This document shows positions 241 through 45,900 of a stretch of 64,000 nt of DNA, piece by piece (position 1 is the stretch's first letter; every line of letters starts with the position of its first letter). The DNA lies in the IMG/VR virus record IMGVR_UViG_3300023174_000124, positions 1-64,000 of that record; one strand, 5' to 3'. The DNA comes from a virus. The position numbers and the translations under genes are program-made. The notes under the pieces are model-generated. The model worked only from the letters and a program-made list of their open reading frames with translations. It made no database searches and was not told where the DNA came from.

Positions 241-314
241 GTTCCTATCGTCTAGCTCGGTCAGGACACCGCCCTTTCAAGGCGGTAACACGGGTTCAAA
301 TCCCGTTGGGAACG
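241..314 (+). tRNA. tRNA-Glu (anticodon TTC)
   Basis: A full cloverleaf can be drawn: acceptor GTTCCTA with TGGGAAC (one G-U pair), D stem GTCT/GGAC, anticodon stem CCGCC/GGCGG with loop CTTTCAA, and T stem ACGGG/CCCGT with loop TTCAAAT. The anticodon is TTC, so it decodes glutamate GAA/GAG codons. No CCA is encoded at the 3' end; host enzymes would add it. GAA is very common in this AT-rich, lysine- and glutamate-rich phage proteome, which gives a plausible reason for carrying it. Confidence 0.95.
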
Positions 315-362: not shown

Positions 363-794
363 ATGAATATAAAAATAATAGCTGAATCTAGACAAGAAGA
401 AATTCTCTACACCCCCCACCATATAAATTATAACCTCACAGGTTATACAAGAATAACTATTGTTAGGACTTACCATATAAGACACTGCGCTAAAAAAGAT
501 ATGGATTATATTTTATCTCTTTCAGATATTCAATTAGCTTACTTCTTTTATGGTAATGAAACTGCTTGGAAGACTCTATTTAGAAGTAGAGAACCTGATT
601 ATGTAGAATTTGAACATTCTACTATGCTTATATTAGATAAAAACCAAACAAGTGGCTATTTTGACATTAATGTAAATGTAAGCTGTACTTTTATACTATA
701 TGTTAAAGAAAATCCTAATTTAGATTTCTTACCCTTATTCTATTTTACTATGGCAACTCTAATTATCATGCTCTTGGTTTATCTCTTTTATTGA
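363..794 (+). CDS. Hypothetical tail-anchored membrane protein
   Basis: A 143-aa protein with no family I recognise. Its only clear feature is a hydrophobic C-terminus of about 22 residues (from about 119, including MATLIIMLLVYLF), which would anchor it in the inner membrane with the soluble part in the cytoplasm. The ATG is preceded by AAGGAG at a good distance, and that site lies in a hairpin (330-360). The gene follows tRNA-Glu on the same strand and converges with the next gene, overlapping its end by 7 bp. Codon use is AT-rich like the neighbours. Confidence 0.75.
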   Translation: MNIKIIAESRQEEILYTPHHINYNLTGYTRITIVRTYHIRHCAKKDMDYILSLSDIQLAYFFYGNETAWKTLFRSREPDYVEFEHSTMLILDKNQTSGYFDINVNVSCTFILYVKENPNLDFLPLFYFTMATLIIMLLVYLFY

Positions 795-1033
795 TATTTC
801 ACCTTATCAAATGGAACTACCATATATTCACTTGTAATCTTATTAAAGAATACATATTCTTCTTCAGCATAAATATAACTATTACTCCCACACCACACCT
901 CTAAAATCAAATCAGGTGTCTTAACTACATTATAATCAATACCATCTTCTATTATTAAAGGCTGATATATCTTATCTTCATATAGACCATCTACACTTAA
1001 CTTTATAACTTCACAAGGTAATATCATGTACAT
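788..1033 (-). CDS. Small hypothetical protein downstream of the PKD-repeat protein
   Basis: An 81-aa acidic protein of unknown function. Its start overlaps the end of the 1721-aa gene by 10 bp (the sequence ATGTACATGA holds both the start and the neighbour's TGA), so it is probably translated by coupling to that gene. A second in-frame ATG two codons later is an equally good start. No membrane segment or signal peptide is visible. Possibly an accessory to the large secreted protein, judged from position alone. Confidence 0.65.
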   Translation of the reverse strand: MYMILPCEVIKLSVDGLYEDKIYQPLIIEDGIDYNVVKTPDLILEVWCGSNSYIYAEEEYVFFNKITSEYMVVPFDKVKYQ

Positions 1034-4000
1034 CTTTTCTTCCTCAGAATGAAATATAATAACAATATTACCATTTCTATTCCTAGTGTTAAAGTTTTAC
1101 TATTACACCCACTAGGATTTCCCCTAAATCTACTTAAATTCAAATCATCTGTTATCACAGAATCTTGAACTCCCATATCTTTAACTTTATAATCTTTCTC
1201 CACCACCCTATTATCTCTCTCTTCTACTCTATAATCTCTATCTTCTACCTTATAGTCTTCCACTCCTTTATCTTGAACTACTATGTTTTTATTCAATATC
1301 CTTATTCTAAATCTCTGTTCTGTCCTCCCACCATCTCTTGTGACATAACCCTCTGTTCTATGTGTATCTTCTGCTATTAAGACTATACTAGCTTCACCAC
1401 CACCTAAATTATCTGCCACTTCCCATTCTAAAGACCATGCCCCCTCTTCTACACTTGTCTTTAATTCCATTGTAGTAGGTGCACCTTGACCTAATAAAAC
1501 TTCTATTGTATCAGTCGCTCCTTTATCTACCACCCTTATATCATATTTATACTTATTACCTGCTACTACTACACTATCAGGCACACTTATAAATTCAGGT
1601 GCTACATTCTCTACATGAACTCTTATTCTTGATATTACACCATTATGGTTTAATGATATATCATAAATCCCATCATCTTCAAATACATAACCTATTTCAC
1701 TACCATACAAGTCTTCACCATTGACTCTCCATGTATATGCCATATCTCCATTATTCTCATTATTAGAACATCTAGCATAATCTACTTTAACTGCACTTAA
1801 ACCCTCAGCCTTAAACCATACACAATCACCTTCAGATACTTGTATATTATCCACCCCATTTTCCCACTCTTCTATTTCAAAAGTTTCTATAAATGTAGTT
1901 TCTACACCTGACCAAGTATCTAATACTTTCACCGATATTGTATATACTCCACTTCTATTAAGTAAATAGGTAGTCCTATTACTTCTCCTATTCTCATATT
2001 CCCATGTGCCGTCATTATTTAAATCAAAACTATATCTTAAGTCTTCAGTATCAGACTCATTTACAAAGACTTCAATCCAAGCTGTATTTCCTATTTGATT
2101 TACATATAGGTTATCTAGTGTAGGTTCTCTATCTGTGATAATAATATCTTTTACAATCTCATTAGATTCTAAGTTATTCTTATAACCTTTCACCTTTAAA
2201 GTATATGTGCCTATATGACTATATATATGAGTAGTGAGATTATTTATAACACCATCACCCCAGTCTACAATATAATTTGTAGCATCTGATTCTATTCTTA
2301 GTTCTATATAACCACCAGCTTCTACTATCTCATTTACAGATGTAATACTAGGATTATTTTCACCTAGTATTTCTACACTTTCTATAACTTCTATACTTGA
2401 CCATGTATCTATAACTCTTACGGAGACAATATGATTAGTCAATATATCTAAAGGCTGTATTAAATTATTAGATGTTTCATTAACAATTTGTCCATCTACT
2501 TCCCATATATAAGTTAAGAGACTAGTATCTCTATCAATAGCATTACATAAGAATATATAGACATCTTGACCTTTAAAGTGATTTAGAGTGACTTCGGTGG
2601 GGGTGTCCGCAGTGACCACTGAAATAGCCATTTCACTATATTTTCCTAGTATATCTTCTACTCTTACTACTACATTTTGAGGGTTAGGTGAGTAATTTAA
2701 TTTTATAATATCACCTATAAGTTCAATTCCATCTTTATATATAGAATAAGACCATTGTTCCTCATCAGTAGCTTCTACGATAAAACTGACTAAACCACCA
2801 TAACCGACTAAGGTAGTGATATTGTTTATAACAGGGGCTAGATTTTCTCTATATGAGATTTCTTCAAGAGTTAAAGAAACTTCCCCACCACGACTATCTG
2901 TTACTTTTACAATAGGATTATAGGTGTTATAGTCAGTATAGTTATATAAAAAGATACCATCATTATTGTTTAATACAGCACCATCACCTGTTTCTAAAGT
3001 ATAGGTTAAGCTATCTTTATCAGTAGCATTTATAATAAATAAGACTTGCCAATCACTTTTTATTATACGGACACCCTCTATTATAGGTAATTCATTTCTA
3101 GTGTTAAATAACTCCGTTATTACCTTCTCTAAACCTAAGTTGTCTTTCACCTTAATATCTATATCAGTAAAGTCAGTGTTTGTCTTATAGGTATATGTAT
3201 TAAGACTGCCATTAAATACTTCTATAATGCCATCTGTGTTTATATCTATTGTATAGGATAAATAAGTAGCTAAAGGTAAATTACTAAAAGGTATATCTAA
3301 AGTGCTTATATCTACACCATCACTACTGTCTACACTAAATAAACCACTTCCCATAGAATCAAGATACTCTGTTTCATAAGGACTTGTTTCAAAGTGATAT
3401 ACATTCCCTTGATATATAAAATCAGTAGATAAGAATAGATCATAGTCATAAATATCTACACTAGCTTTAATTTTAACAATAGGATTAGGTGTAGCAAATA
3501 TATCTACTTTATACCACCCATTACCTATTTCAGTATTTACTACATCTAAGACAATAGGAGGTAAATTAAGGTGTTCTATATTAGGATTAGATATAGCAGG
3601 TGGTATATTAGGGATTTCAATATATATAGTCTTTTCACTATATAAACCACCCTCGTCAGTAGCTATAATTTTTATAGAGTCTATTCTAAAACCATCACCA
3701 TTAGGTGTATAGGTATATAAGAGGTCATTAACTTTAGTTAGAGTGCCATTACCGAATATAATTTCACCTATCGTAGTGACATTTAAGTTTTCTGGGTCAG
3801 TTGTACCACTAAGGTCAATAAGAATATTATCACTTGTATAAACAAGATTAGTTTCAGTAGAGATAATAGGAGGTAGGGTGTTAGGTAAGACATTTATAGT
3901 CATAGAAGAGTAGCTACATAGAGAGCAGTCTTTATTTTCAATATCATCTTTACATAAATTAGTCCATTGACCGTCATCACAGACTTTAAAAGGGATGGTG

Positions 4001-6189
4001 ATTTTATCAAGTGTAGTATTTAGTGTTATAGTGATAGGATTAGATATTGTTTCATAAACACCATCACGATCAGTATCATAAGAGATTTCGGTGATAGAGT
4101 CTTGAATACCTTGAGGTCTAGTAGTATCCCCAGGAAATGGTGATTGAGAAATATCTGAGTCGTAGGAATTAGAAGCATCAAGAGTTAAGGGGGCTTTATT
4201 ATATGCTGTATAGGTATTAGGTACAGCGATAGGGGCATGGTTAAATTTAGAGATTTTGATTTCAACGGAGTCTGAGTCTTCAACGATACGACCTAGATTA
4301 TCTATAGTTTGTAGGGTGATTTTTTGTTTTTTAATTTCACCCCAAGCGACATCTTGAGTATAGGTGAAAGAGAAAGTTTGGTTTAAGTCAGTAGTGGTGA
4401 AGTCCCAGATTATCTCATTTGGGTCAACAATGTTGTTATTATTAAGGTCTTCATTGCAGTTATTAGTGATGTCTATGGAACAATAAGGAAGACTAGGAAG
4501 AATATAATCAATAACATTCCACCTGAAAGATGAAATAGATACTTGAGGGTCCAGAGAATAAGACCAGCTATGATCGTAAACAACAGGTGTATTAGGAGAT
4601 ATGAGTTGAGGGGATGCTTTTGCATAGGGTTGTACCTCTAGCCAAGATTGGATAATTTGAGCAGTGACAGCAGTTCGTTCATTAGTAGAAAAAGAACCTG
4701 CCCAGGGCCAGTTCCCTGCCCAAGTCCAAGTCCCATTATTAAGTTGTTTTGAAGCACCATTAGAGTTTTTAGTGTTATTTTTGCCTGTAATAAAGAAGTC
4801 TATATACTCATTTGCCCAATGAGTTCCATTAGGTAAATAAGTTATTTCTGGAGTAAACGACCTAAGACCCTTTGTAGTAGCATAGACATAGTATAAACCC
4901 CAATGGTTACTATCAGTAAGATACCAAGATTGAATTGCATTGACAGAACTAGATACTTGAGCATTTGTATTTATCTCCTCATTTTCAGTCCATCCATAAC
5001 CTACAAGGGTATTACCTGCTAATTTAGTGCCTGGTCCGTCATAAGCACAAACACCATTAGGGCAGTGTATGGATAGCCATGTTCGTTGTTTATTTTTAAA
5101 AGAATCGTAATCTATATTATAGAATTTTCTTTTAAGGAGTCTGATAGCTTCAGGTGCCCAGCCATTAGTCGAAGCATCATCCGTTACACCTGTCATATTC
5201 ATACAAGTATAAAACCAAGCACCATCAGAAGTAGTACATTGTAATAAACCATCAATAAGATCTTGACCTATATTTTTAAGGGTGGTGTTATATATACCTG
5301 CACGACCTACAGGTGATATATAATCAGGATTACCAAAGTTAGCGAGAGGTTCAGCCCAAGCAGTAGACTCGTAACTTGCCCAAAAGAAAGCATTAAGATT
5401 ATTCAAAGCTACAAATTCCATACCTTTACTAGGAGTGCCTAAAGTATCAGTATCGGTGAAACCTATATTTTTAAGTTGCATAGTAGCAAGTATAGAGTGA
5501 AGACCACATTGAGTTAAGTTTCTATAATAAGGGTCATTATCTCTATTAGCACCATAACCATGACCTCTTCTGAGAAAGACATTAAGGGTGTGTCCTGTAG
5601 TATAGAGAGTTTGATTACCAGGAATATAACAAAGGTGTTCATCATGTAGGAGAGAGTCATTAGTTTTATGTATAGCTTGTCTAAATAGATACCACATAGA
5701 ATTATCAATGGCTCTGTTAGAATACATTTTACGAGTGTAGGATAAATTACCATCATTGCCACAATTAGCATTATTAGGGTCGTTTATATAGTTGGTGCAT
5801 ATACCGTCAACGATAATTTCAATGGGGTATGTAGCAGTAGCTATTTCTTGACCACAAGTAACTTCTACTTTAGGGAATATATAGGTATTACCGAGAGCAT
5901 TAGGGAGGGTGGTTTCGAGGTGGAGAGGTGCGAAGTAGGCATTTTTGTTAATAGAGATAGGGTTCTCATTAATGTCATTGAAATCACCATCAGCATTAAT
6001 ATCCCATCTGTAAGAGTAAGAGTTGCAATTACCACCTTCAGCAATAGCTTGTAAATGGGTGGGGAGACCATTAAGAGCTATGTGGGGGATATTGGGGTTT
6101 GATTGCACCCAGGGTATGGGTGTAATAGAGAGTGGTGTTGCTAGTAGGTGTATAGGCAACACTAATAGCAGAGGAAGTAGTGTTTTCAT
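1024..6189 (-). CDS. Giant secreted PKD/Ig-repeat protein with alpha/alpha-toroid-like domain and C-terminal membrane tail
   Basis: A 1721-aa protein. Residues 1-17 form a signal peptide ending in LLAT. Residues about 150-520 resemble an alpha/alpha toroid of the terpenoid-cyclase/prenyltransferase fold, with the segment SDGAWFYT and then TNGWAPEAIRLL. From about 555 to 1625 there are many PKD/cadherin-like beta domains with DxDxDG-type calcium loops (DINADGDFND, DTDRDGVYET, DINTDGIIEV, DLNNDGTWEY) and a classical PKD signature (WGDG then IGTYTL). Residues 1638-1679 are a charged VxDKxY-type repeat. The end has GNPSGC (Cys 1695), a membrane span (about 1700-1715) and RKKR, the layout of Cys-containing CTERM sorting signals such as MYXO-CTERM. 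AGGAG precedes the ATG. Likely function is exposure on the host or virion surface, for adhesion or exclusion; a virion role cannot be excluded. Such a signal peptide and tail are unusual in a phage gene. Confidence 0.8.
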   Translation of the reverse strand: MKTLLPLLLVLPIHLLATPLSITPIPWVQSNPNIPHIALNGLPTHLQAIAEGGNCNSYSYRWDINADGDFNDINENPISINKNAYFAPLHLETTLPNALGNTYIFPKVEVTCGQEIATATYPIEIIVDGICTNYINDPNNANCGNDGNLSYTRKMYSNRAIDNSMWYLFRQAIHKTNDSLLHDEHLCYIPGNQTLYTTGHTLNVFLRRGHGYGANRDNDPYYRNLTQCGLHSILATMQLKNIGFTDTDTLGTPSKGMEFVALNNLNAFFWASYESTAWAEPLANFGNPDYISPVGRAGIYNTTLKNIGQDLIDGLLQCTTSDGAWFYTCMNMTGVTDDASTNGWAPEAIRLLKRKFYNIDYDSFKNKQRTWLSIHCPNGVCAYDGPGTKLAGNTLVGYGWTENEEINTNAQVSSSVNAIQSWYLTDSNHWGLYYVYATTKGLRSFTPEITYLPNGTHWANEYIDFFITGKNNTKNSNGASKQLNNGTWTWAGNWPWAGSFSTNERTAVTAQIIQSWLEVQPYAKASPQLISPNTPVVYDHSWSYSLDPQVSISSFRWNVIDYILPSLPYCSIDITNNCNEDLNNNNIVDPNEIIWDFTTTDLNQTFSFTYTQDVAWGEIKKQKITLQTIDNLGRIVEDSDSVEIKISKFNHAPIAVPNTYTAYNKAPLTLDASNSYDSDISQSPFPGDTTRPQGIQDSITEISYDTDRDGVYETISNPITITLNTTLDKITIPFKVCDDGQWTNLCKDDIENKDCSLCSYSSMTINVLPNTLPPIISTETNLVYTSDNILIDLSGTTDPENLNVTTIGEIIFGNGTLTKVNDLLYTYTPNGDGFRIDSIKIIATDEGGLYSEKTIYIEIPNIPPAISNPNIEHLNLPPIVLDVVNTEIGNGWYKVDIFATPNPIVKIKASVDIYDYDLFLSTDFIYQGNVYHFETSPYETEYLDSMGSGLFSVDSSDGVDISTLDIPFSNLPLATYLSYTIDINTDGIIEVFNGSLNTYTYKTNTDFTDIDIKVKDNLGLEKVITELFNTRNELPIIEGVRIIKSDWQVLFIINATDKDSLTYTLETGDGAVLNNNDGIFLYNYTDYNTYNPIVKVTDSRGGEVSLTLEEISYRENLAPVINNITTLVGYGGLVSFIVEATDEEQWSYSIYKDGIELIGDIIKLNYSPNPQNVVVRVEDILGKYSEMAISVVTADTPTEVTLNHFKGQDVYIFLCNAIDRDTSLLTYIWEVDGQIVNETSNNLIQPLDILTNHIVSVRVIDTWSSIEVIESVEILGENNPSITSVNEIVEAGGYIELRIESDATNYIVDWGDGVINNLTTHIYSHIGTYTLKVKGYKNNLESNEIVKDIIITDREPTLDNLYVNQIGNTAWIEVFVNESDTEDLRYSFDLNNDGTWEYENRRSNRTTYLLNRSGVYTISVKVLDTWSGVETTFIETFEIEEWENGVDNIQVSEGDCVWFKAEGLSAVKVDYARCSNNENNGDMAYTWRVNGEDLYGSEIGYVFEDDGIYDISLNHNGVISRIRVHVENVAPEFISVPDSVVVAGNKYKYDIRVVDKGATDTIEVLLGQGAPTTMELKTSVEEGAWSLEWEVADNLGGGEASIVLIAEDTHRTEGYVTRDGGRTEQRFRIRILNKNIVVQDKGVEDYKVEDRDYRVEERDNRVVEKDYKVKDMGVQDSVITDDLNLSRFRGNPSGCNSKTLTLGIEMVILLLYFILRKKRCT

Positions 6190-6249
6190 AAAAACTCCTG
6201 AGAAAAAAGATACTTAAAAGTAGGGGTGAAATAAATTTAAAAAAATAAT

Positions 6250-6277
6250 TTGCAAGAATATAAAAGTATGCTATATA
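6250..6277 (+). promoter_or_regulatory. Candidate sigma70-like promoter
   Basis: TTGCAA (6250-6255) lies 16 bp from TATATA (6272-6277). Transcription would start near 6285 and meet the strong terminator at 6313-6350, giving a transcript of about 60 nt, or read through into gene 6400. The -10 region is embedded in AT-rich DNA, so other registers are possible. Confidence 0.4.
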
Positions 6278-6312
6278 TGTGTATATAGGCTTTGAAGAGA
6301 ATATTAGCTTAT

Positions 6313-6350
6313 AAGGTCTAGTGTTTTAAGTAGCACTAGACCTTTTTTTT
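6313..6350 (+). terminator. Rho-independent terminator (plus strand)
   Basis: AAGGTCTAGTG (6313-6323) pairs with CACTAGACC plus TT (6334-6344) around a 10-nt loop, and is followed by T8 (6343-6350). On the plus strand this is a textbook intrinsic terminator. No plus-strand gene ends nearby: the region to the left carries minus-strand genes. It therefore stops either antisense transcription under the 1721-aa gene or a short RNA from the promoter at 6250. Confidence 0.85.
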
Positions 6351-6399
6351 ATTTATATGTTTGTAATTGTATATACTTTTAAAAGAGGATTTTAAAAAA

Positions 6400-6648
6400 A
6401 TGAATCGTAGACAGTTACAAATGAGAATAGCTAATTTGAAAGCAGAATTAGAAGATATAAAAGCAGAACTATATGCTGAAGATATTTTAGGTGTAGGAGC
6501 GAATGAACACGCAGGATGGCAATATGGGGAAGGATACTTCCATGATGGAAAAACAAATGATGCTAAAGCTAAACATGAGTATAATATTAATTATTATTCA
6601 ATCGATGAAAATAAGAGTAAATTTTGGGGTGTAAAAGGTAAAAAATAG
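6400..6648 (+). CDS. Small hypothetical protein with N-terminal coiled coil
   Basis: An 82-aa protein. The start is placed at the ATG at 6400 because AGAGGA lies just upstream; an upstream TTG extension has no such site. Residues about 3-30 (RRQLQMRIANLKAELEDI) form a short coiled coil. The rest is hydrophilic and rich in Gly, Asn and Lys. No family is recognised. It follows a terminator and precedes a good promoter, so it forms its own short transcription unit. Confidence 0.65.
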   Translation: MNRRQLQMRIANLKAELEDIKAELYAEDILGVGANEHAGWQYGEGYFHDGKTNDAKAKHEYNINYYSIDENKSKFWGVKGKK

Positions 6649-6677
6649 TTGACTTTTATGTTAGCTGTGTTTATTAT
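6649..6677 (+). promoter_or_regulatory. Sigma70-like promoter TTGACT-N17-TATTAT
   Basis: TTGACT (6649-6654), a 17-bp spacer and TATTAT (6672-6677) closely match the sigma70 consensus. The predicted start is near 6684. No reading frame begins within the next 480 bp on this strand, so the first product is probably a structured RNA (6684-6773), with the gene at 7170 as a distant possible target. Confidence 0.65.
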
Positions 6678-6683
6678 CATATC

Positions 6684-6773
6684 TGTAGCTTACTATCGTC
6701 TATGATAGGTTTTTCCTCTCACTCTGATATATGGTGAGGCTACGAGAAATATATCACTTACTTTAAAGTAAGT
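6684..6773 (+). ncRNA. Candidate structured small RNA
   Basis: The region directly after a good promoter folds as a three-way junction: P1 GTAGC/GCTAC (6685-6689 with 6739-6743), P2 CTATC/GATAG (6693-6697 with 6704-6708) and P3 CTCAC/GTGAG (6718-6722 with 6734-6738), with P3 stacked directly on P1. A competing 7-bp stem GATATAT/ATATATC (6726-6732 with 6749-6755) would break P1, as in a switch. A perfect 18-nt palindrome (6756-6773) ends the region. P2 followed by GTTTTT could also act as a weak early terminator. No protein frame is present. Not matched to any known RNA family. Confidence 0.45.
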
Positions 6774-6774
6774 T

Positions 6775-6823
6775 AGTTAGTAGTTATCAGTTAGTAGTTA
6801 TCAGTTAGTAGTTATCCGTTATC
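6775..6823. repeat. 14-bp direct tandem repeat, three copies plus a half copy
   Basis: The unit AGTTAGTAGTTATC occurs three times without change (6775-6788, 6789-6802, 6803-6816), followed by CGTTATC. It lies immediately beyond, and partly under, the stop codon of the minus-strand gene 6812. Read on the minus strand it is dense in TAA and TGA triplets. Perfect identity suggests recent replication-slippage expansion. Confidence 0.95.
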
Positions 6824-7108
6824 AGTATATGCTAAGTATTTAGTAGCTATGTCTAAAACAGATTGTGTTTTCTCTTCCAAAAAAGCACAATCTGTTTCCA
6901 TGACTCTATTGTGTGCAATCAATAAAATATTAAATTTCAAATCATCTTCACCAACAAATAATAAATACTTATTTGCTATATCTATTATTTCATATGTCAT
7001 CTCTTCTTCCGAGAGTTCATTAGCTGTGCCTTTATATATACTTAAAACTAAATCTTGTGCTATATTCAATAATTCAAGTTTTAAAGTAGAGAGTTCAAGA
7101 GAATCCAT
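6812..7108 (-). CDS. Hypothetical small helical protein
   Basis: A 98-aa acidic protein starting at the ATG at 7108 (residues MDSLELSTLK), which has AAGGATAAC just upstream; a longer 113-aa reading frame has no ribosome-binding site. The sequence is predicted all-helical. Two segments look related (DIANKYLLFVGEDD and DIATKYLAYTDNG), suggesting an internal repeat. The stop falls in the 14-bp tandem repeat. It is divergent from gene 7170 with a shared inverted repeat between them. No family is recognised. Confidence 0.65.
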   Translation of the reverse strand: MDSLELSTLKLELLNIAQDLVLSIYKGTANELSEEEMTYEIIDIANKYLLFVGEDDLKFNILLIAHNRVMETDCAFLEEKTQSVLDIATKYLAYTDNG

Positions 7109-7116
7109 TGATGTTA

Positions 7117-7160
7117 TCCTTTTATAAAAAGTGTGTATGTATATATAATACATAAAAGGA
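7117..7160. promoter_or_regulatory. Inverted repeat overlapping both ribosome-binding sites of divergent genes 7108 and 7170
   Basis: TCCTTTTAT (7117-7125) and ATAAAAGGA (7152-7160) are perfect complements. On the plus strand the right arm carries the AAAAGGA site of gene 7170. On the minus strand the left arm carries the AAAAGGA site of gene 7108. One palindrome can therefore form a site-masking hairpin in either transcript, provided transcription starts outside it. The middle contains TATATATAATAC, a possible -10 region. Confidence 0.6.
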
Positions 7161-7169
7161 ATATCTAAA

Positions 7170-7649
7170 ATGGAAACTATGGCACAAAAAATAGCAAGAA
7201 TTTATATTGCTAAGAAAAAAGATCAAGGTCTTCCTAAAAAATACCTTAGTGGTTTTAAAGGTAAAGAGAGGACAGAGAGAGCTAAAGAAATAGCTAAAAG
7301 AAAAAATGAGACTGACCCTAAGAAATTATATAAACCCTTTAAGTCAGATGCTGATGCTACTACTAGAAAAAGCCAATATAGTAAAACAGAAGTTGCTGAG
7401 AAAATCAGAGAAGAACTTAAAGGTACAAGTAAAAAAGATTACTTAGCAGCCGCTTCTAAAGTTTCAGGTGTAAGTAAAAGTATTTTAGAACAAGTATGGG
7501 ATAGAGGATTGAAAGCATGGACAACAGGACATAGACCTGGTGCTACTGCTCAACAATGGGCAATAGCTCGTATATATAGTTTTTTAAGTGGTGGTAAAAC
7601 ACAATCTACTGCCGATAAAGACCTAGCCGAAGAAGCAGGTCTTATTTAA
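7170..7649 (+). CDS. DUF5824-like phage protein
   Basis: A 159-aa basic protein. The N-terminal part has LPKKYLSGFKGKERTERAKE, and the C-terminal half has a helical segment ending in AWTTGHRPGATAQQWAIARI, a signature common to a family of small phage and plasmid proteins that I recall as DUF5824. Its function is unknown; association with virions or DNA has been suggested from context only. The start ATG has AAAAGGA upstream, and that site lies in an inverted repeat. It converges with gene 7646, overlapping by 4 bp. Confidence 0.7.
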   Translation: METMAQKIARIYIAKKKDQGLPKKYLSGFKGKERTERAKEIAKRKNETDPKKLYKPFKSDADATTRKSQYSKTEVAEKIREELKGTSKKDYLAAASKVSGVSKSILEQVWDRGLKAWTTGHRPGATAQQWAIARIYSFLSGGKTQSTADKDLAEEAGLI

Positions 7650-8044
7650 CACCATTCAATTATAGAGATTGTAGTATATTTAGATCGTCTTTTATCTATC
7701 CATTCCAAAGCATTAGTATCTGATTCTTTCATTGATATCTTTAATCCTTCTTGAGTTAGCCACACCCATACATTTAAATCATTCTTAAAATGAAACCTTG
7801 TATCTTCTAATAATTCTTCAATTTCATTAAAAGACATATACAACCTTGTTTCTTCGGATTTTCCTAATTCTATTTCATTGGATTTACTTTTAAAAAACCA
7901 ATCTTGAGAATATAGTTTTTTTCTTAACTTTAAATCACAATCTAATATATAAGACTCTTGTTCTTTAGTGGGTATATCTAAACCTAAATTAGTATAGAGT
8001 TTTTCTACATCTTCAAATTTTTTTATAGTTAAGTAGATTATCAT
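7646..8044 (-). CDS. Hypothetical protein
   Basis: A 132-aa protein, Lys/Glu-rich, with no recognised domain. The start ATGA overlaps the stop of the upstream gene by 4 bp, so translation is probably coupled. It is the last gene of a minus-strand run of four small genes (8737 to 7646) with very short gaps. No membrane segment or signal peptide is visible. Confidence 0.65.
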   Translation of the reverse strand: MIIYLTIKKFEDVEKLYTNLGLDIPTKEQESYILDCDLKLRKKLYSQDWFFKSKSNEIELGKSEETRLYMSFNEIEELLEDTRFHFKNDLNVWVWLTQEGLKISMKESDTNALEWIDKRRSKYTTISIIEWC

Positions 8045-8253
8045 TCTTCTAACTCAAAGTCAGTATTCATAAATAGAGGACTATCTTCATGATAAGGTAA
8101 AGACCTTAATATATTATACTCAAACCAATCAAAAGCATCTTCTCTATTTAATTCATATAAGGTTTCTAGGACAAGATAGATAGCTTTATCAGTGCCATAA
8201 CATACACCAACAACACACGAGTCAAATTCTGATCTTGGTTCAAGTAGCATCAT
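8041..8253 (-). CDS. Hypothetical small acidic protein
   Basis: A 70-aa acidic protein starting ATGATG at 8253. The leader AAGGATATAATAAA before the ATG is the same as that of the next gene upstream (8496), so these two genes share a translation-start module. It overlaps the following gene by 4 bp. No family is recognised. Confidence 0.6.
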   Translation of the reverse strand: MMLLEPRSEFDSCVVGVCYGTDKAIYLVLETLYELNREDAFDWFEYNILRSLPYHEDSPLFMNTDFELEE

Positions 8254-8283
8254 TTTATTATATCCTTTTTTTTCATAGAATTT

Positions 8284-8496
8284 TTATTCTTTAGGTGCAA
8301 GGTATACATTCGGTTCTATTTTCCAATCCAACTTTATTAAACTTCTTGCAGTCATTAAAGAAATAGATTTTCTTAGAGAAACTATGTCTTTTTCTAAATA
8401 AAAACCACAAGGGTGTGCTTTCATTTTATAAGGTAAATAAAAACATAGAAAGTTGCTTTGTACATAATTACCATTACAATTAAACCAGCAAATCAT
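8284..8496 (-). CDS. Hypothetical small protein
   Basis: A 70-aa protein with four cysteines in its first half and no recognised fold. The leader AAGGATATAATAAA and ATG are repeated exactly at gene 8253. Its ribosome-binding site lies inside the last codons of the upstream membrane-protein gene. Part of the small-gene run 8737 to 7646. Confidence 0.6.
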   Translation of the reverse strand: MICWFNCNGNYVQSNFLCFYLPYKMKAHPCGFYLEKDIVSLRKSISLMTARSLIKLDWKIEPNVYLAPKE

Positions 8497-8500
8497 TTTA

Positions 8501-8737
8501 TTATATCCTTAGTTTAATAGCTTTATTTTGCCATTTTTCTTCCCATTGTTTATAATCTCTAAGGGAATGTATAAATTCAATATACCATATAAAAAAGAAG
8601 ATGATATAATGAATAAGACTAATCCACATAAGAGTAAGACTTTCTTTATTATATTTGAAATACAATTCATCTACTTTAATACAGCAATAAACCCATCCTA
8701 ATAAATATACACAGATAAAACCTATAAAGATATCCAT
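8501..8737 (-). CDS. Small membrane protein, two predicted spans
   Basis: A 78-aa protein with hydrophobic segments at about residues 2-20 (IGFICVYLLGWVYCC) and 37-57 (ISLIHYIIFFFIWYIEF) and a charged C-terminus. AAGGAG precedes the ATG. It is the first gene after the terminator at 8760-8784, so it likely starts a new transcription unit. The two-span layout fits several phage small membrane proteins, including holins, but nothing specific supports that. Confidence 0.65.
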   Translation of the reverse strand: MDIFIGFICVYLLGWVYCCIKVDELYFKYNKESLTLMWISLIHYIIFFFIWYIEFIHSLRDYKQWEEKWQNKAIKLRI

Positions 8738-8759
8738 CTTAATTTCTCCTTAAAATAAC

Positions 8760-8784
8760 AAAGCCCTCTTTTTAGGAGGGCTTT
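8760..8784 (-). terminator. Intrinsic terminator after the histone-like gene
   Basis: AAAGCCCTC (8760-8768) pairs with GAGGGCTTT (8776-8784), a 9-bp perfect stem with a 7-nt loop. On the minus strand it is followed by TGTTATTTT. It lies 38 bp beyond the stop of gene 8822 and before gene 8737, so it separates two minus-strand units. The symmetric A/T flanks may allow some action on the other strand as well. Confidence 0.8.
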
Positions 8785-8821
8785 ATTAACGAAAAATCCA
8801 TACTGAAGGAGCAAAGGTTTA

Positions 8822-9016
8822 TTAAGCCTTAGGTTCTTCTTTCTTAACAGAATTAAGAACCTCTACTCTCAATTCTTTAGCTAACTTAATAGATTCGAGA
8901 AGAGCTTTACGAACGCGTGTAGAAGAAATCTTAACACCGTTATCTACTTTTGTTGCTTCAGGTGCTACTGAAGCTAAGAGATTTTGAATCTCAGCGAGTT
9001 TTTGACTAATTGTCAT
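8822..9016 (-). CDS. Histone H1-like small DNA-binding protein (phage family)
   Basis: A 64-aa protein starting at the ATG at 9016, chosen because GGAGA lies upstream. It contains STRVRKALLESIKLAKELR, which matches the AGTRARKALQEIK-type core of the short histone H1-like proteins found in many large phages and cyanophages. The family is thought to bind DNA, perhaps in packaging or nucleoid takeover. It is followed by a strong terminator and its start overlaps the end of gene 9006. Confidence 0.7.
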   Translation of the reverse strand: MTISQKLAEIQNLLASVAPEATKVDNGVKISSTRVRKALLESIKLAKELRVEVLNSVKKEEPKA

Positions 9017-13771: not shown

Positions 13772-16700
13772 TTAGTCGCTAGAGCGAACATAGAAAGTAA
13801 ATTGAATATAGAGTAATGGGAATACAGGTTTATAGTATGCTTCAACAATAATGCTAGTTGGGTCTACAGGATCAGGAGTAACTTTGATACCAGTAAAGGA
13901 ACTAATAATTTGTTCTCTTACAAGTTGTTTAAAGGCATAAGTGATTTGACCTTGTAATTGGATAGCAATACCTGGGAGGTTCTTTTGACCGATATAAGGG
14001 TCGAGTAAATCTCTCATTCTAACTTGAACTTCATCAGCAATTTGGATAACTGTAGGAGTTCTAGTAAGAAGGCTAGACATATTAGTGGTTAAACCATGTC
14101 TAACTTTAATACGACCGACTTGGTTTTCAAGGATGGTGACACCTTTTTGAGCTGCTTGATTAGCTTCAACAGCATCAAGAGTTCTAAGGATACCATTAAA
14201 GCCTGTAATAGGTCTTGATTCCCAGGGGGTAGCAACATCTGAATTAGCATTAACAGAGGTACAAGCCATAGCAACAGCAAGGTATCTACCATCAACGATA
14301 AAGGTATTAGAATTACCTAAAGCATCAGTTAAAGTTAAAGAAGTAATATCGGGGTAAACAACACGAACACGGGCACTGTTAGTTAAAGAAGCGAGACGAC
14401 CTGCTTCTTTAGGTGTAGTACCTGCAGCAAAACCCATAATAGCTGTTCTTTCTGCTCTGTATCTTAAAGAACTTTGTAAATCACAATGTTTAGAAAGTTC
14501 AGCAAGGATAGATTCATTAGCAGGAACTAAAGGTAAAATCACAGAGGGTAATAAACCGATAGTAATTTGACCTTCAACTTCACCTAAAGCTACAAGAATT
14601 TGATCTGTTGTTAAATCACCTTGACCTGGTTCTTTAGCAATTTGCTTACAAGCAATAACAGAAGCACCGTTAATATAAGCTATATATGCTGCAAGAGATA
14701 ATGAATTATCAGAACTTACATCACCATATTCTTCAATAACATCATTAAGGGTTGTAAATACCTTAGTGCCAAAATCACTCTTAGCTTTAGTGAAACTTAC
14801 ATAATAAACTTGACCTACATCAGGTTCTTTACCTGCTTTATCAAAAGTTTCTACATAAGCTGTATTACCAACAGCAATATTAGTGGTATTAGCTACTACA
14901 AGTTCTACACCATTAATAACATTCATAGGAATATTACTATTACAAGTAAAGGTAGAACTAACTTTCCAAGTGAAATAAGAAGTTGGGTCTATAGGATAAC
15001 TGATATTGCCTTCTTGTGCAAGGATAGTAAATGTTAAACCTGTTACAGCATCTACATAAGTTTGACCTACTACACCGTCTTGACCAATACCATCATTAAA
15101 CTTAGATGTATTAGCAGTACCTGAACCTTTAGGATGGTTAGATGTCACATAGAAACCATTGATACCATCTTCACCGACAGCACCATCTCCGACTACAATC
15201 TTTAAACCATTACCCTTAGTAGTAATAGCATTACCACCTGTAAATTCTAAACTAGAATCAAGTCCTTCACCTAGAGATTCAAATGCTACATACTTTTTAC
15301 CTGTAGAAGAAGTATGAACATAAGCAACAGCACCACTAGCAAAGTAATTAGCACTTGGAGATACACCAAATAACAAATCACTTAAAGTAGCTGATTGATG
15401 GTTCATCAAAGCACTAACAATTTGAGAAGCAGAAACTGATTTAGAAGTAGAGGTAGTATTTCTAGCTGTTCCAAGAATATCATTAGCACTACCATTAAGG
15501 ACTTTTAAGTAGCTACCTACAACAGCATTATTTAATACAATTCTAATACCAGCACCTTCAATATTAATAGAAGCATCAACACCAGCATCAATAAATGCTG
15601 AGTCGATTTGGCTTTGGATAGTAGAAACAGAAGTTAGAGTACCTGCACCTGTAGTACCAAAGGTAGTAACAACAGTAGTACCACTAACATCAATAATAAA
15701 TACATTGTTAGCAGAAGAGATACTTGGTGTAGTACCATCATAGAAAGTAACAGCAGCTTGAGATTCACCAACTTCTTGACCTTCAGACCAACCGATAGTT
15801 AATTTGATACTTGGAGCTTCAAGAACAGCACCTTGATAAAGAGCAGGACTGAAACTTGGTTCAAGACCTAGATTAGTCATAGAAGTACCACTAATAACAC
15901 GAACACCGATTTCACCTGTGGGTAAATAATAACTATTACCTGGGATTAATCTGTTTCTTAGGATTAAGTGATCTACTAAAGCACCTGAATTAAGAGTAGC
16001 TCGGCTATAAGAAGCGATAGGTAAGAAACCGAATTTAGTTTGAGTTTCATCAGGAGCATCAGCATCAATACCTGCAATAATAGCGAAATCATCAGTATCT
16101 ACAGCTTGACTAATAAATTCAATATATCCATAATCATCATCAGTACCACCATCACCAGCATTAGGTAATGTTAAGAGGGTGAATACTAGATGACCTGAAG
16201 TTTCGGAGACATTAAGTTCTAAACCAGTAAAATCAACATTACCACCTACAAAAGAAGCTATTTCGGAATCAATTTCGGACTTAATAGCAGTAGCAAGAGC
16301 AGATGCAGTAGTATATGCTGCAGGAGGAATAGTAATACTAATTTCACCTGTAGCACCATTATTATTACCTACATATTGGAATGATAATGTATCATAGGAA
16401 TTAACAACAATTTGTAATCCACCACTCATTTTAGTCATGGCGATATATTTAGGTGCTGCTAAAGTACCTGTATCTAAAGACCAAGCATTTAAAGCATCTA
16501 CAATGTCAGTTACATCTTTGTTATTGGCAACTGTGAAATTTACATTCATTTCTTGGTTGTCAATCTTTAGATTTAAGCCATTAGTGCCACTTGTAAAATC
16601 TAAAGTAGTATTATTGCTATCATTAGTATAAACAAGGTGTTGACTAACAAGTTGAGCAAGACCACCTGTTGCACCTGTAGCAGTAGTACAATTAGATAAA

Positions 16701-18619
16701 CTTACATTACCTACGAGAGATACATCATCTACTTTTAATGCAATTTCATCACTCTTAGTAGCAATAGGGAAGTAAGGTTCAGCACCTGGAGATACAAATA
16801 AAGCACTATTAGAATCAGATTCAGCGAATGTAACGGTAACAGTTTCATTAACAGGTGTACCACCAATTAAATGAGCATCTGGATATAATTCACTGCCTGA
16901 GGGGAATACTAAATCAATACCATCAAGGGAAGCACCTTTTTGACCTAAGGTAACACCATATTTAGTAGCACCTTTAACAGATACGGTGTATTTACCTACA
17001 TTACTAGCACCTGCTAGAGTGTTTGTAATTACATAAGGGTTATTACCATCAACTGTTTGGTCTGATAAGTTGCTATGATAGAAGGTAGCAAATACTTGTT
17101 GTCCTTCTTCAACAACAGAAGCTAAAGTGATAGTAGAGTCATTAGGATTGACTCTAACAACAGTAGAATTAGACTTCTCTAGGGCATCGGAAATATTCCA
17201 ACCTACTTTAACTTGAACAAGGTCAGTTCTTGAAGTAGGAGTGCCTGTACCTGTACCATCAACGGGTTGGTAGGGTAATTTAAAGGTGCTTGGAAGAGGT
17301 CTAGCTGGAGTAACTGTTGTATCTACAACTCTAGTACATTCAGCAAGATATACTTTTTCATCTTTAAGATTAGCAGTGATTTGGCTTTGACCGAGAGGTA
17401 AAGTACCATCAGCAGTAACACCTTCAGAAACAACAGCTACAGTACCCCAATAAATTTTATCATCTTTGAGAACCCAGTCTACACCTTCGATGAAGTTAGA
17501 AGAAGCACCACCTGAGCCATCAGCAACAAGAGAGACACTTTCTACACTTGTAATGTTAGAACCTGGTAAGTAATCAAATTGGTTTCTAAAGCTATTATAA
17601 TAGTAAGTAACTAAAACTTCAGCACCTGAAGCAGGTGGGTTAGATAGGGTGAAGAACCCATTAACACCATCAACAGCAGTAGGGACAACTTCAGTACCAT
17701 CTACAGTAACAGTAATATCAGTGACATCGGTAGTAGGAATACCACCATTAGAACCGTCAACGATGGGGAAGAAGTTAGTATAGAAATTTACATTACGGCT
17801 AGTAGTTTGATCAACAGTAAAACCAAGAACAGAATTAGCACTTCCATTCCCAATTTTAATAGAAACATCAGCAGTAAGGATGATTTGGTCTTCATTGTTA
17901 TTATCAGTATATGTATCAGCTACGAGAGAACCCGCACTACCTGCATTAATAAGAGCAACCATAGTTGCAAGATCATCTGCTCTAGTAGTGGTAACAGTAG
18001 GTGTGGAGATAGTATATTTAGTACCATCTACGGTGACAATAAAGCTGGTGGTAGAATTATTAAATGCAAAAGTACCTTGAGCACCAAGTAATTCAGCACT
18101 ATCAGTAGTAACTTGACTAGAAACATCTTCTTCTTCAACTAGGGTGTCAGTTCTTTTGAAATAATAGCTAACAAGAACGACATCAGTAGGTTGAAGAGTT
18201 TGAGCTAGTGTAATAACCCCTTTAGAAGCATTAACCCCAAGAACAACAGTAACAGTTCCATTAACGGTAGCAAGAATACTATTACCATTAGTAGCAGGTG
18301 TACCTGTACCTGTGCCATCAACAATGGGGAAATGTTGTACTTGGACTTGGGTGGTATTACCATCAAAGTCGCCAATAATAGGATTACCATTAGGGTCGTA
18401 GCTTAAAACACCACGACCTGACATATTTTCATCAACAGATTGTTGATCTATAGTAGAAGAAGAACCTCTAACTATAGTAGAAGAAATAGTATTAACCACT
18501 TCTTTACCTGTACCGATAAGTAGAGGAACTCTACCTGAAACAACAGTAGTAGGATTAGTGGTTTGAAATATACTTTCTGTATAAACACCTGGTGGTGCAT
18601 AACCGCCTCTAATAGCCAT
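13772..18619 (-). CDS. Contractile tail sheath protein with very large insertions
   Basis: A 1615-aa protein. The N-terminus (YAPPGVYTES) and the C-terminal 345 residues (from YYVSFTKAKSDFG, with TGFNGILRTLDAVEANQAAQ and the final receptor strand VFPLLYIQFTFYVRSS) are typical of T4 gp18-type sheaths. The family is usually about 400-700 aa, so roughly 1100 residues (about 100-1260) are inserted. These hold at least three related beta modules (FPIVDGTGTGTP near residue 103, FPIVDGSNGG near 291, QPVDGTGTGTP near 452, each ending in VLVSYY, VLVTYY or VFATFY) and several flagellar hook-IN-like modules (for example YTTASALATAIKSEID). The insertions probably decorate the outer tail surface. AAGGAG precedes the ATG. 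Confidence 0.92.
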   Translation of the reverse strand: MAIRGGYAPPGVYTESIFQTTNPTTVVSGRVPLLIGTGKEVVNTISSTIVRGSSSTIDQQSVDENMSGRGVLSYDPNGNPIIGDFDGNTTQVQVQHFPIVDGTGTGTPATNGNSILATVNGTVTVVLGVNASKGVITLAQTLQPTDVVLVSYYFKRTDTLVEEEDVSSQVTTDSAELLGAQGTFAFNNSTTSFIVTVDGTKYTISTPTVTTTRADDLATMVALINAGSAGSLVADTYTDNNNEDQIILTADVSIKIGNGSANSVLGFTVDQTTSRNVNFYTNFFPIVDGSNGGIPTTDVTDITVTVDGTEVVPTAVDGVNGFFTLSNPPASGAEVLVTYYYNSFRNQFDYLPGSNITSVESVSLVADGSGGASSNFIEGVDWVLKDDKIYWGTVAVVSEGVTADGTLPLGQSQITANLKDEKVYLAECTRVVDTTVTPARPLPSTFKLPYQPVDGTGTGTPTSRTDLVQVKVGWNISDALEKSNSTVVRVNPNDSTITLASVVEEGQQVFATFYHSNLSDQTVDGNNPYVITNTLAGASNVGKYTVSVKGATKYGVTLGQKGASLDGIDLVFPSGSELYPDAHLIGGTPVNETVTVTFAESDSNSALFVSPGAEPYFPIATKSDEIALKVDDVSLVGNVSLSNCTTATGATGGLAQLVSQHLVYTNDSNNTTLDFTSGTNGLNLKIDNQEMNVNFTVANNKDVTDIVDALNAWSLDTGTLAAPKYIAMTKMSGGLQIVVNSYDTLSFQYVGNNNGATGEISITIPPAAYTTASALATAIKSEIDSEIASFVGGNVDFTGLELNVSETSGHLVFTLLTLPNAGDGGTDDDYGYIEFISQAVDTDDFAIIAGIDADAPDETQTKFGFLPIASYSRATLNSGALVDHLILRNRLIPGNSYYLPTGEIGVRVISGTSMTNLGLEPSFSPALYQGAVLEAPSIKLTIGWSEGQEVGESQAAVTFYDGTTPSISSANNVFIIDVSGTTVVTTFGTTGAGTLTSVSTIQSQIDSAFIDAGVDASINIEGAGIRIVLNNAVVGSYLKVLNGSANDILGTARNTTSTSKSVSASQIVSALMNHQSATLSDLLFGVSPSANYFASGAVAYVHTSSTGKKYVAFESLGEGLDSSLEFTGGNAITTKGNGLKIVVGDGAVGEDGINGFYVTSNHPKGSGTANTSKFNDGIGQDGVVGQTYVDAVTGLTFTILAQEGNISYPIDPTSYFTWKVSSTFTCNSNIPMNVINGVELVVANTTNIAVGNTAYVETFDKAGKEPDVGQVYYVSFTKAKSDFGTKVFTTLNDVIEEYGDVSSDNSLSLAAYIAYINGASVIACKQIAKEPGQGDLTTDQILVALGEVEGQITIGLLPSVILPLVPANESILAELSKHCDLQSSLRYRAERTAIMGFAAGTTPKEAGRLASLTNSARVRVVYPDITSLTLTDALGNSNTFIVDGRYLAVAMACTSVNANSDVATPWESRPITGFNGILRTLDAVEANQAAQKGVTILENQVGRIKVRHGLTTNMSSLLTRTPTVIQIADEVQVRMRDLLDPYIGQKNLPGIAIQLQGQITYAFKQLVREQIISSFTGIKVTPDPVDPTSIIVEAYYKPVFPLLYIQFTFYVRSSD

Positions 18620-42985: not shown

Positions 42986-45900
42986 TCAAATGTGATTAAG
43001 AATAATATTTTTGATTTCAGGCTTAGAAGATAAAGCTATTTTGATAAGTTTATTTTTTATAGATGCTTGTTTTTGTTGTGTCATCTTTTGCATCTGTTTC
43101 TTTAGTATCATCATATCTACTTTAGTTTTTCTTAACTCCAATTTATCTTTTCGAGCTTCAATCTCTTTATCTCTTTCTTTATTCTTTTCTAATCTTCCTT
43201 TTTTCTTATCTTCTAAGTATTTCTCTTTATCAAATTCTAAGTTATCATTGAAATAAGGTTTAAGTTCTTCAAAATCACTCTCTTCAAATTTACTCATTTC
43301 TCTAATCTTTTGTTTGATTTGTTCTTTCTTATCTTCTTTAGAAGTAATATAAATACTAGCTTTCTTATTTGTCTTTGCTTGTTGTTTATATTCTTTTTTA
43401 GCATCTTCATATTGTTCTATGACTTGATCTGTATATTCTTCATCATAGGGGTTATTTTTACTTTTTGCCTTTTTATATGCACTAAGTAATTTTTTAAAAT
43501 CTAAGGTGTCTGTTTTTTTCCTTCCTGTACTTAAAGTGCCTACAATATCCCAAGTTCTATCTCCAAAGTATTGGGTCATACTCAAATCTTCTTTGCTTGG
43601 TTTTTCCTCTTCCTTGACTTTTTTATCTGAAGAAGGTTCGGTCTTCTTTTGTGGTTTTTTATTTTTTAAACTTTGTAAGAGTATTCTAGCTGCAAATACA
43701 GCTTCATCATCGTCTGGTATCTCACTAAATAGTTTACGATTATTATTAACAAAATCTACACTTTCTTCTTCTATTTCTTCATCAGTTAATTTCTTTTTCT
43801 TTTTCTTTATCGTCTTCTTCATCTTCTCTTCTATTTTATCTTGTTTTTCTTCACTTAATTCATCTAACACCATTTCTTGAAAATGTAAGTCTATTCCCTC
43901 TTCTTCACTAAGTTCTTCATCATGTTGTTTAGAGATATTTTTTATTCTTGTGGTTAATTCCTTTTGTTTATCTTTTATTTGTTTCTTATGTTCATTATCT
44001 GTGTTTTTCATAGTATCTTCGTGACTTGAATATTCTTGTGTCTTTTTAGCATTATATTCATTTTCAGCATCTATTTTAGATTGATTATAATCCTCATCTG
44101 CTTTTGTTTTAGCTAATGCCGTTTCATCTTCTAATTGTTTAAGAGCTTTTTCTTTTGCTTTTTCTTTATTCGTTATCTCTATAGGTTTCTTTTGTAAGCT
44201 ATTTAAAGACTTAGTTAAACTTGTATTCTTTTTTTGGGCATCTGGGTTATTGTTAATAATTTCTTTTCTTTTTTCTTCTAGGGATTTCAAGTCCTTTTGT
44301 TTTTCTTCTTCTTTTAATTTTTCACCCTCATCACCTTGATATTTAGGGTCAAGAGCAAGAACTAAATACTTTTCATCTATTTTCTTTTGTTCTCCTTCCA
44401 CATCTAATTCATTTTTGATGATTTCATTTATTTCTTTATCACCTTCTTCTTTTCTTTTTTTGACTCTTGTTTCATGATCAGAATTTAATTTTGCTATATC
44501 TTGAGCTACACCTTCTTCAATTTTCTTTTTCTCAGTTTCATAGTGAGTGTCTATATCTTTCTTTTTATTAGTATAGGTATCTTCAATTTCTTTTTGTTTA
44601 GTAGCATGACTATCATCAATATCTTTGATCTTTTTAGTATGTTCTTCATTTAAAGAAGTCTTTTTCTTTTCATGTTCTTCGACAAGTTTATTCTTTTCTT
44701 CTTCATGTTCTTTATATACTTGTTCTTTTACTTCTTTAGCATCTGCTTCTAATTCACCCGATAGGGATTTCTTCAAGCCATCTAAAGTTTTAGCTGCCCA
44801 TGCTTGTTTAGCGGGATTAGAAGAGTCTTCTGCCAAATCATATACTTCTTCTATTGTATATTTATTACCTGTATCGTCTTTAATTTTGAGAGGTTTTCCA
44901 CCTTCTTGTTCAGGTTTGAATAAGGCTTCTATTTGTTCTCTTTGTTTTTGTTGAGTGATAGTTTTCTTTTTTATATCTTCATCATATTCTTTTTCTATGC
45001 TTTTTAATTTCTCTTTAGCCCAAGCACTATCATCAGGGTCTTTTGATTTAGACATCTCTACTATTTGATCATAAGAGATAGGAGGAGCATCAAATAAAGT
45101 ATCATCTTTGTATTGTTTAGTAGATGCAAATTCTTTAATTTGTTCTTTTTTATCTTTATCTAGTTTTAGTTTTTTAAAAGAATCTAAGGCATTATCTCCT
45201 CTTTCTAAAAGAAGTTTCTCATCTGTATCTAATTCTTTGTTTAAAACCTTACCTAGCAAATCTGTGTCTTTCTCTGTTATCTTTCCATTCATGAACTCTT
45301 TAGTTATCTGTCTTTTTAAACTATCTTCGATGTTTTTATCTTTTAGAAATTCATTTGCTTTGTTTAAAATTTCAATCTTTGATTCATCTCTAGCTATGTC
45401 TTCATAGTTAACACCTAATTTTTTAGCCTTATCCATTAGTTCTTTGTGTTTTTCAAATTCTTCTTTAAAATCCTCTGCTTCACCTACATAGCTATTTTGA
45501 TCTTCTTCTGTAATCTTTTTTCCGTTACCACCTAAAGTTAAAGATACTAATTTTTCAAAGTCTCTGTCTTTTAACTTACCTTTGAGACTAGCCATTTCAT
45601 TTATTAGATTAGGACTTAAAGGAGTACTTACACCTTTAGGTAAATGTTCTTTTAACAAATCTTCAGTATGCTTTATATCTTTTACTTTATTTAAAACATC
45701 AAGAACTTCTTTTCTTTTATCACCATAAAGATCTTCTTTAGTGAGACCTTTCTCTTCTAAGTATTCCTTAGTTTTTTCAGAATCAATAATATCTTTTCCA
45801 AATTTAAGACTGTCTGTCATATTTTGGAATGTTTCCATCATCCCTTTAAACCAACCTTTTTTCTTGGGTTCTGAAGGAGTTTCTAATTCTTCTATTCTCT

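Follow-up and report, generated by a model that had tools for sequence, protein, structure and literature searches.

The gene at positions 1024-6189 of IMG/VR virus record IMGVR_UViG_3300023174_000124, which we examined as a 64,000-nucleotide window comprising bases 1-64000 of that 84,859-bp viral contig, encodes a protein of 1721 amino acids whose identity as a homologue of a surface-protein family of Myxococcota is well supported by sequence comparison. The explanation that we put forward, and to which we give about even credence, is that one order of Myxococcota has a surface system of two parts, that this phage gene is homologous to the adhesin part, and that its product would serve on the infected cell as a receptor that alters adhesion or recognition. 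This proposal is built on the near-full-length relationship of the protein to host proteins, its sorting layout, the linkage or fusion of some of the host proteins with a TraB-like outer-membrane protein, and the occurrence of a diverged homologue of that partner in sister phages; judged from these sequences, the window phage carries the adhesin half, and the partner is known from its sister phages. That the protein would be sorted, displayed and able to affect adhesion or recognition we infer from the homologues and from the TraA/TraB (TraAB) system of Myxococcus xanthus, and the displayed protein would presumably work in a TraA-like way as an analogue, not being a TraA homologue by any test applied.

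Architecture of the gene and protein

The ORF (open reading frame) analysis of the window gave a single open frame on the minus strand, to which all of the following features belong, and full-length homologues in two related huge phages as well as host homologues correspond to it. Residues 1-18 (6136..6189) form a signal-peptide-like start, MKTLLPLLLVLPIHLLA, strongly hydrophobic by hydropathy, and the homologues have equivalent starts that end directly before the same mature N-terminus. This is followed by an N-terminal beta-rich Ig/PKD-like domain with approximate boundaries (residues 19-130, 5800..6135), delimited by identity and by strands in a structural model, and by a head region (residues 131-545, 4555..5799), the best conserved part of the protein, with cysteines conserved across 20 homologues. 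The PKD/Ig stalk (residues 546-1635, 1285..4554), defined by Pfam matches and by the identity profile, evolves fast in its middle, and leads through a charged low-complexity linker (residues 1636-1685, 1135..1284; 21-24% identity to the other phages) into a C-terminal sorting-signal-like tail (residues 1686-1721 plus the stop codon, 1024..1134), consisting of GNPSGC with Cys 1695, a span and RKKR. The tail ends in FRGNPSGCNSKTLTLGIEMVILLLYFILRKKRCT, that is, Gly-Cys, a membrane span and a basic end, a layout common to all three phages and seen in host homologues as well.

Pfam matched the protein to PKD (E=1.4e-11) and PKD_4 (2.7e-7), together with Big_9 at 0.0037, below the cut-off of that model, and loops of the DxNxDG type lie at residues 63, 705, 982 and 1389. 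A preliminary description of this DNA, made from the letters alone, had proposed a signal peptide, an alpha/alpha-toroid-like domain, about ten PKD/Ig repeats with calcium-type loops, and the GNPSGC/span/RKKR tail; it was borne out in part, namely in the open frame, a hydrophobic signal-peptide-like start, the loops and the tail. As to the repeat number, Pfam sees few stretches, and the stalk of about 1090 residues could have room for ten to twelve. As regards the question of a toroid in the head (residues 131-545), AlphaFold2 models built on four-sequence alignments reached a mean predicted local distance difference test score of 37 and 30, and the strands of residues 19-130 fall in the sole moderately confident part of the first of them; with a 20-sequence profile the head region gave no PDB match and no convincing Pfam match. 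The combination of a hydrophobic start, a C-terminal span, a basic tail and a Cys was met with in 3 of 183 distinct phage ORFs, namely the adhesin and its two phage homologues, in a control that took ORFs of at least 100 amino acids, spurious ones included, with thresholds chosen after the protein had been seen.

Relatives in Myxococcota

The homologue search that the preliminary description had proposed yielded full-length relatives in two huge phages and family members in Myxococcota. A pattern scan with the N-terminal alignment over one genome per species (84,980 genomes) confirmed a single relative among 128 pattern matches, P0004 of the metagenome-assembled genome Myxococcota bacterium KLAP118, a protein of 3010 amino acids on a contig of about 70% GC; several weaker paralogues are also present in this genome. 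A profile search of 377 Myxococcota genomes found 13 with a match at E<=1e-15, and exactly the same 13 are those that match among the 16 genomes of the order to which genome G130 belongs, twelve with a near-complete N-terminal region and one (G268) partial. As the remaining three genomes of the order belong to the phylum draw, there is no match in the other 361 Myxococcota, and the restriction to one order is accordingly a statement about Myxococcota, the phylum that the profile search covered.

Over the conserved N-terminal region of about 540 residues the phage protein is 44-54% identical to 17 host sequences, and the phage proteins, themselves among the 20 rows of the alignment, keep its invariant positions, among them cysteines. 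The G130a protein (1860 amino acids) could be aligned at 37.5% with phage residues 20-1631, with 58% identity over residues 19-130 and 53% over residues 131-545, and 19 of the 21 phage cysteines, that of the tail (Cys 1695) included, fall on cysteines of G130a. In a maximum-likelihood tree of the N-terminal region (20 rows, midpoint root, the amino-acid make-up of the phages departing from the rest), the three phages form one clade (100/100), whose stem measures 0.46 changes per column, and this clade groups at 100/99 with four proteins of genomes G130 (44% GC) and G173 (48-50% GC), of one family. The tree retained the incomplete rows G076, G273b, G249b and G173a (the last with 459 residues only) and left out paralogues with partial matches (G009 contigs 52, 56, 79 and 91, and others).

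The phage copies are thus homologous to the order-specific head/PKD family (P0004, G130a), with an N-terminal region 49-53% identical and the same succession of export start, stalk and Cys/span/basic tail, but they differ in forming their own AT-rich clade with a shorter and more diverged tail. We consider a cellular origin of the adhesin family likely, and from these relationships the order would be the putative host order of this phage lineage. At the DNA level, 19.9 kb of the window compared with the 16 genomes of the order gave a best E of 0.0066, which we read as chance. The G173 orthologue of the adhesin (L051, contig 16, ~3250-8899) is interrupted by stops or a frameshift, and may be a pseudogene or an assembly error.

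C-terminal tail and sorting machinery

Among the host homologues, the tails of G009, G216 and G066 have G-S-(S/G)-C-x-C with an Arg-rich end, those of G086, G046, G130a and G173a a Gly-rich stretch, Cys, span and basic end, and that of P0004 reads SGSSCNC, span, RPRRRR, while the homologues of G159 and G273 end without a sorting tail (three rows of this survey are incomplete or run off their contigs). The MYXO-CTERM model is passed above its curated cut-off by P0004 and G216. The preliminary description had recognised in the phage protein a bacterial surface-adhesin design with Cys-type C-terminal sorting, and this agrees well with its nearest cellular relatives being Myxococcota surface proteins, some of them bearing such a MYXO-CTERM. 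In the M. xanthus model the Cys is processed by MrtX and export proceeds by type II secretion (PMC11980579). The phage adhesin has the tripartite layout of a motif with Cys, a span and a basic end, and in this it resembles the MYXO-CTERM/myxosortase system (TIGR03901, NF040593; PMC11980579), whose model host homologues pass; unlike that system, the phage tails fail the model, and the nearest host lineage very nearly does so as well, TIGR03901 having 0 matches in G130 and 1 in G173 against 41 in G009 and 50 in G216. Such low numbers suggest that the lineage nearest to the phages uses a diverged tag, as the phages seem to do.

TraB-like partner in host genomes and sister phages

In G130 the gene after the adhesin, on the same strand, encodes a protein of 667 amino acids with a hydrophobic export start, weak beta-barrel matches, TSP3 repeats, an OmpA domain (6e-19) and SPOR. 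Homologues of this partner adjoin the adhesin in G173, G169 and G046, and in the paralogues G130b and G173b the adhesin runs on at its end into a homologous barrel/OmpA/SPOR unit; these adhesin-barrel-OmpA-SPOR fusions (L049 on G130 contig 89 and L050 on G173 contig 26) are each one protein of 2.7 thousand residues. Comparing 30 family hits with 36 partner hits, among the matches listed, a partner lies within 10 kb of 9 of the 30, and G046 contig 388 holds an additional pair of adhesin and partner neighbours. The best NCBIfam model of the host partners is TraB (3 of 3 hosts, 5.4e-58 to 7.6e-86), and it is also the best model for the barrel alone in all four cases tried.

The traA and traB genes of M. 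xanthus overlap in an operon and are both required for outer-membrane exchange; TraA consists of a PA14 head, a stalk and MYXO-CTERM, TraB carries an OmpA domain, and overexpression of TraAB makes cells adhere (PMC3325183). The system described here is like TraA/TraB in its head, rigid stalk and Cys-type C-terminal sorting tag, and in the barrel/OmpA partner, adjacent or fused in hosts, for which TraB (NF033763) is the best model. It is unlike TraA in that the PA14 head and Cys-rich repeats are not seen in the phage adhesin, and unlike the pair in that the partners score far below the TraB cut-off of 700 bits (hosts 196-288 bits, phages 60-63 bits) and that the phage adhesin and partner are non-adjacent. 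With Pfam and NCBIfam, no match to the PA14 head or to the TIGR04201 Cys repeat was found in the phage or host adhesins, and homology of the adhesin to TraA was rejected, no TraA model matching the phage proteins P0001-P0003. A further parallel is offered by the M. xanthus adhesin MXAN_5598, in which barrel and OmpA domains come after an internal MYXO-CTERM (PMC11980579), the same layout as in the G130b and G173b fusions.

When the G130 partner was used as query against seven phage records, homologues were found in G003 (35%, E 1.5e-67) and G005 (33%, E 9.4e-66). The phage partners comprise 476-478 amino acids with an export start, a barrel, TSP3 repeats and a shortened OmpA-like end, and for the whole protein TraB is the best model in both, through the TSP3/OmpA part; the phage barrel alone gave no TraB match (0 of 2). 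In the corresponding genes (L088 1483-2913 and L089 1483-2919) the barrel and TSP3 repeats are kept but the OmpA domain lacks its GHTD and NRR stretches, so that binding of these TraB-like proteins to the cell wall may have been lost. There was no match to the phage partner in INPHARED, and a scan of IMG/VR returned only the G003 and G005 records. Against the 377 Myxococcota, the top two matches of the G003 partner are the genes beside the adhesin orthologues of G130 and G173 (1.0e-66 and 1.4e-66), with a third close behind (5.5e-64).

Phage lineage and age of the gene

The window phage is a tailed myophage with DNA polymerase A and tail sheath genes, and the record is an 84.9-kb fragment of a huge myophage. 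Its polymerase and sheath are 47.6% and 40.2% identical to those of the 485-kb uncultured phage LR745208, and the 308-kb Tunturi_5 phage is a further match for the sheath. The tail sheath gene (13772-18619, minus strand, 1615 amino acids) is matched by the sheath model over residues 1264-1610 only, pointing to a very long N-terminal extension; the LR745208 homologue matches it over the full length.

Related phage records were reached through the polymerase gene, and the adhesin gene is present in 3 of the 9 phage records searched: that of the window and, with 54% and 53% identity across the whole length, G003 (316 kb) and G006 (196 kb). The adhesin has no match in INPHARED, LR745208 matches neither the adhesin nor PKD_4, the single whole-length protein as query found no relative among viral contigs, and alignment-based scans of viral contigs returned only the two phage records already known. 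A comparison of 20-22 kb showed records G005, G006, G007 and G008 to be 99.97-100% identical, and we therefore treated them as one population; G003 is 81.2% identical to that population over the aligned part. Since G005 and G006 belong to the same population, both sister phage populations hold the adhesin together with the partner.

Between the window protein and those of the other phages, identity is 70-73% in residues 19-130, 79-80% in residues 131-545, 30-43% in the mid-stalk (871-1440) and 53-54% in residues 1531-1635. The ratio of nonsynonymous to synonymous substitution rates (dN/dS) for G003 versus G006 is 0.12 over residues 19-545 and 0.17 over the stalk; for the other phage pairs the synonymous rate is above 1, which makes their dN/dS indicative only. 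The presence of full-length homologues in two related huge phages marks the gene as an old phage gene under purifying selection. The preliminary description had also entertained a recent capture from a host, and this must be abandoned: the three diverged phages form a clade of their own on a long stem, with an N-terminal dN/dS of about 0.11-0.13. That the gene is instead a host-derived passenger or a contig artefact, functionless for the phage, is scarcely credible, since in spite of the likely cellular origin of its family it is intact and full-length on three separate contigs, AT-rich like the phage genomes, monophyletic and under purifying selection.

Functional interpretation and alternatives

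If the gene acts as we propose, the phage protein would be exported by Sec after infection and anchored to the inner membrane through its C-terminal span, where a myxosortase-type CPBP protease of the host would process it at the Cys; no match to the MrtX model was found in the 3 phage records searched for a sortase of their own. It would then cross the outer membrane, a step that the M. xanthus model assigns to type II secretion, and be displayed, a TraB-like barrel from either the phage or the host would join it, and the conserved head on its PKD stalk would act as a receptor changing the adhesion or recognition of the infected cell. A host-type adhesin, together with a relative of its partner in sister phages, suggests that these viruses may remodel the contact and recognition of infected cells.

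Several results weigh against this proposal. The phage adhesins P0001, P0002 and P0003 gave no TIGR03901 match at E<=10, so the phage tail was filed as MYXO-CTERM-like and not as a member. A host with MYXO-CTERM-type processing, as the preliminary description had suggested, finds some backing in the MrtX model, which picks out one best protein in each of six host genomes, but at 99-117 bits all six stay under the 180-bit cut-off, and, because 4 of the 14 control genomes also match at E<=0.001, these matches lend weak support. The partner was not found in the window's own 85-kb record or in four other phage records, all possibly fragments, and in G003 adhesin and partner are non-adjacent, at about 234 kb and 88 kb. 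The G003 partner matches 285 of the 377 Myxococcota at 1e-10, partly via the TSP3 repeats. In the partner tree, in which the G046_C333 row covers 39% of the columns, the phage branch is very diverged (2.17), the best tree places the phages together with G130a/b and G173a/b at only 51/70, and of five phage groupings tried two were rejected, two were not and one is that of the best tree. The rejected clades are those of the phages with G130a and G173a alone (p-AU 0.018) and of the phages with G169 and G009 (p-AU 0.003). Finally, among the matches listed, 21 of the 30 family hits are without a listed partner nearby.

The main rival is superinfection exclusion, in which a host surface protein that serves this phage or its competitors as receptor would be masked, replaced or titrated by the phage protein on display, or by the phage barrel, so that infected cells could not be infected again. 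We judge it unlikely, and it could coexist with a role in adhesion or recognition. Huge phages are described as encoding predicted membrane and surface proteins with a possible influence on infection by other phages (PMC7162821), and modification of the surface against other viruses as a strategy of jumbo phages (PMC7824862); moreover, in the adhesin the phages have a diverged version of a host surface protein, and the phage partner has lost the GHTD and NRR stretches, as a competitor might. The idea that the host protein is a phage receptor, however, is unsupported by any result, and the conservation of the head suggests that a binding function was kept, rather than mere masking. The proteins of the window phage and those surveyed in PMC7162821 fall in the same category, phage proteins predicted on the membrane or cell surface, but here, in contrast, a definite host family, a sorting route and a two-part system can be named.

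A bolder version of the receptor proposal, which we hold to be doubtful, is that huge phages domesticated both halves of a TraAB-like receptor and use them to re-specify or drive contact, possibly including outer-membrane exchange, between infected and uninfected cells, whether to spread or to exclude rivals. Prophages of Myxococcus are reported to carry kin-discrimination toxins delivered by outer-membrane exchange (SitA on Mx alpha, prophage sitAI; PMC10047993). These would be alike in that mobile elements tap TraA-dependent contact, but there the prophage products are toxins delivered by the TraAB of the host, not receptor-like proteins. In the literature searched, as far as listings and excerpts reach, including excerpts of PMC10047993, PMC7824862, PMC7162821, PMC6070905 and PMC12619734 and a term search of PMC13037316, no phage-encoded receptor of TraA/TraB type or MYXO-CTERM type was found.

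A role in contact or in the matrix without a TraB-like partner, anchoring infected cells to surfaces, prey or kin, or changing their grazing, appears improbable to us. The majority of family hits with no listed partner close by and the G159 and G273 homologues without a sorting tail, which indicate that the head is usable in other settings, would accord with it, but the sister phages carry a partner homologue and the closest host orthologues are linked to a partner. Much less probable still is a place in the virion, for instance as a protein that decorates the particle or lets it adhere: many virion proteins carry PKD/Ig domains, and this one is large, has such domains and lies about 4 kb from the polymerase and sheath genes in the window, but the hydrophobic export start and sorting tail are kept in three phages, the cellular homologues are surface proteins, and in G003 and G006 the gene has neighbours that differ from those in the window, outside the syntenic sheath/polymerase block.

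If the receptor proposal is true, it would provide an example, open to testing, of a virus that rewires how the cells of a social or predatory bacterium recognise one another, it would give a candidate host order for this lineage of huge phages, and it would define a family of myxobacterial surface receptors, specific to the order, that come with TraB-like partners.

Neighbouring genes and other features of the window

An ORF of 81 amino acids on the same strand (788-1033, minus strand), with no Pfam match, overlaps the last 10 bases of the adhesin gene, and the two are possibly translationally coupled. Converging on the adhesin gene is an ORF of 143 amino acids (363-794, plus strand) whose C-terminus is hydrophobic and whose PHROGs match, a weak one, is to the superinfection exclusion protein SieB (E 0.027). 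The tRNA set of the window amounts to one, tRNA-Glu (TTC) at 241-314 (plus strand). A stretch of strong AT skew (-0.29 to -0.35) coincides with an ORF of 1402 amino acids (42986-47194, minus strand), which has no PHROGs match. The ORF at 8284-8496 (minus strand) is matched by several tandem ORFs of about 70-88 amino acids after the polymerase gene in the sister phages (L004, L005 and L007), relatives that, to judge by their similarity, make up an expanded family of small proteins.

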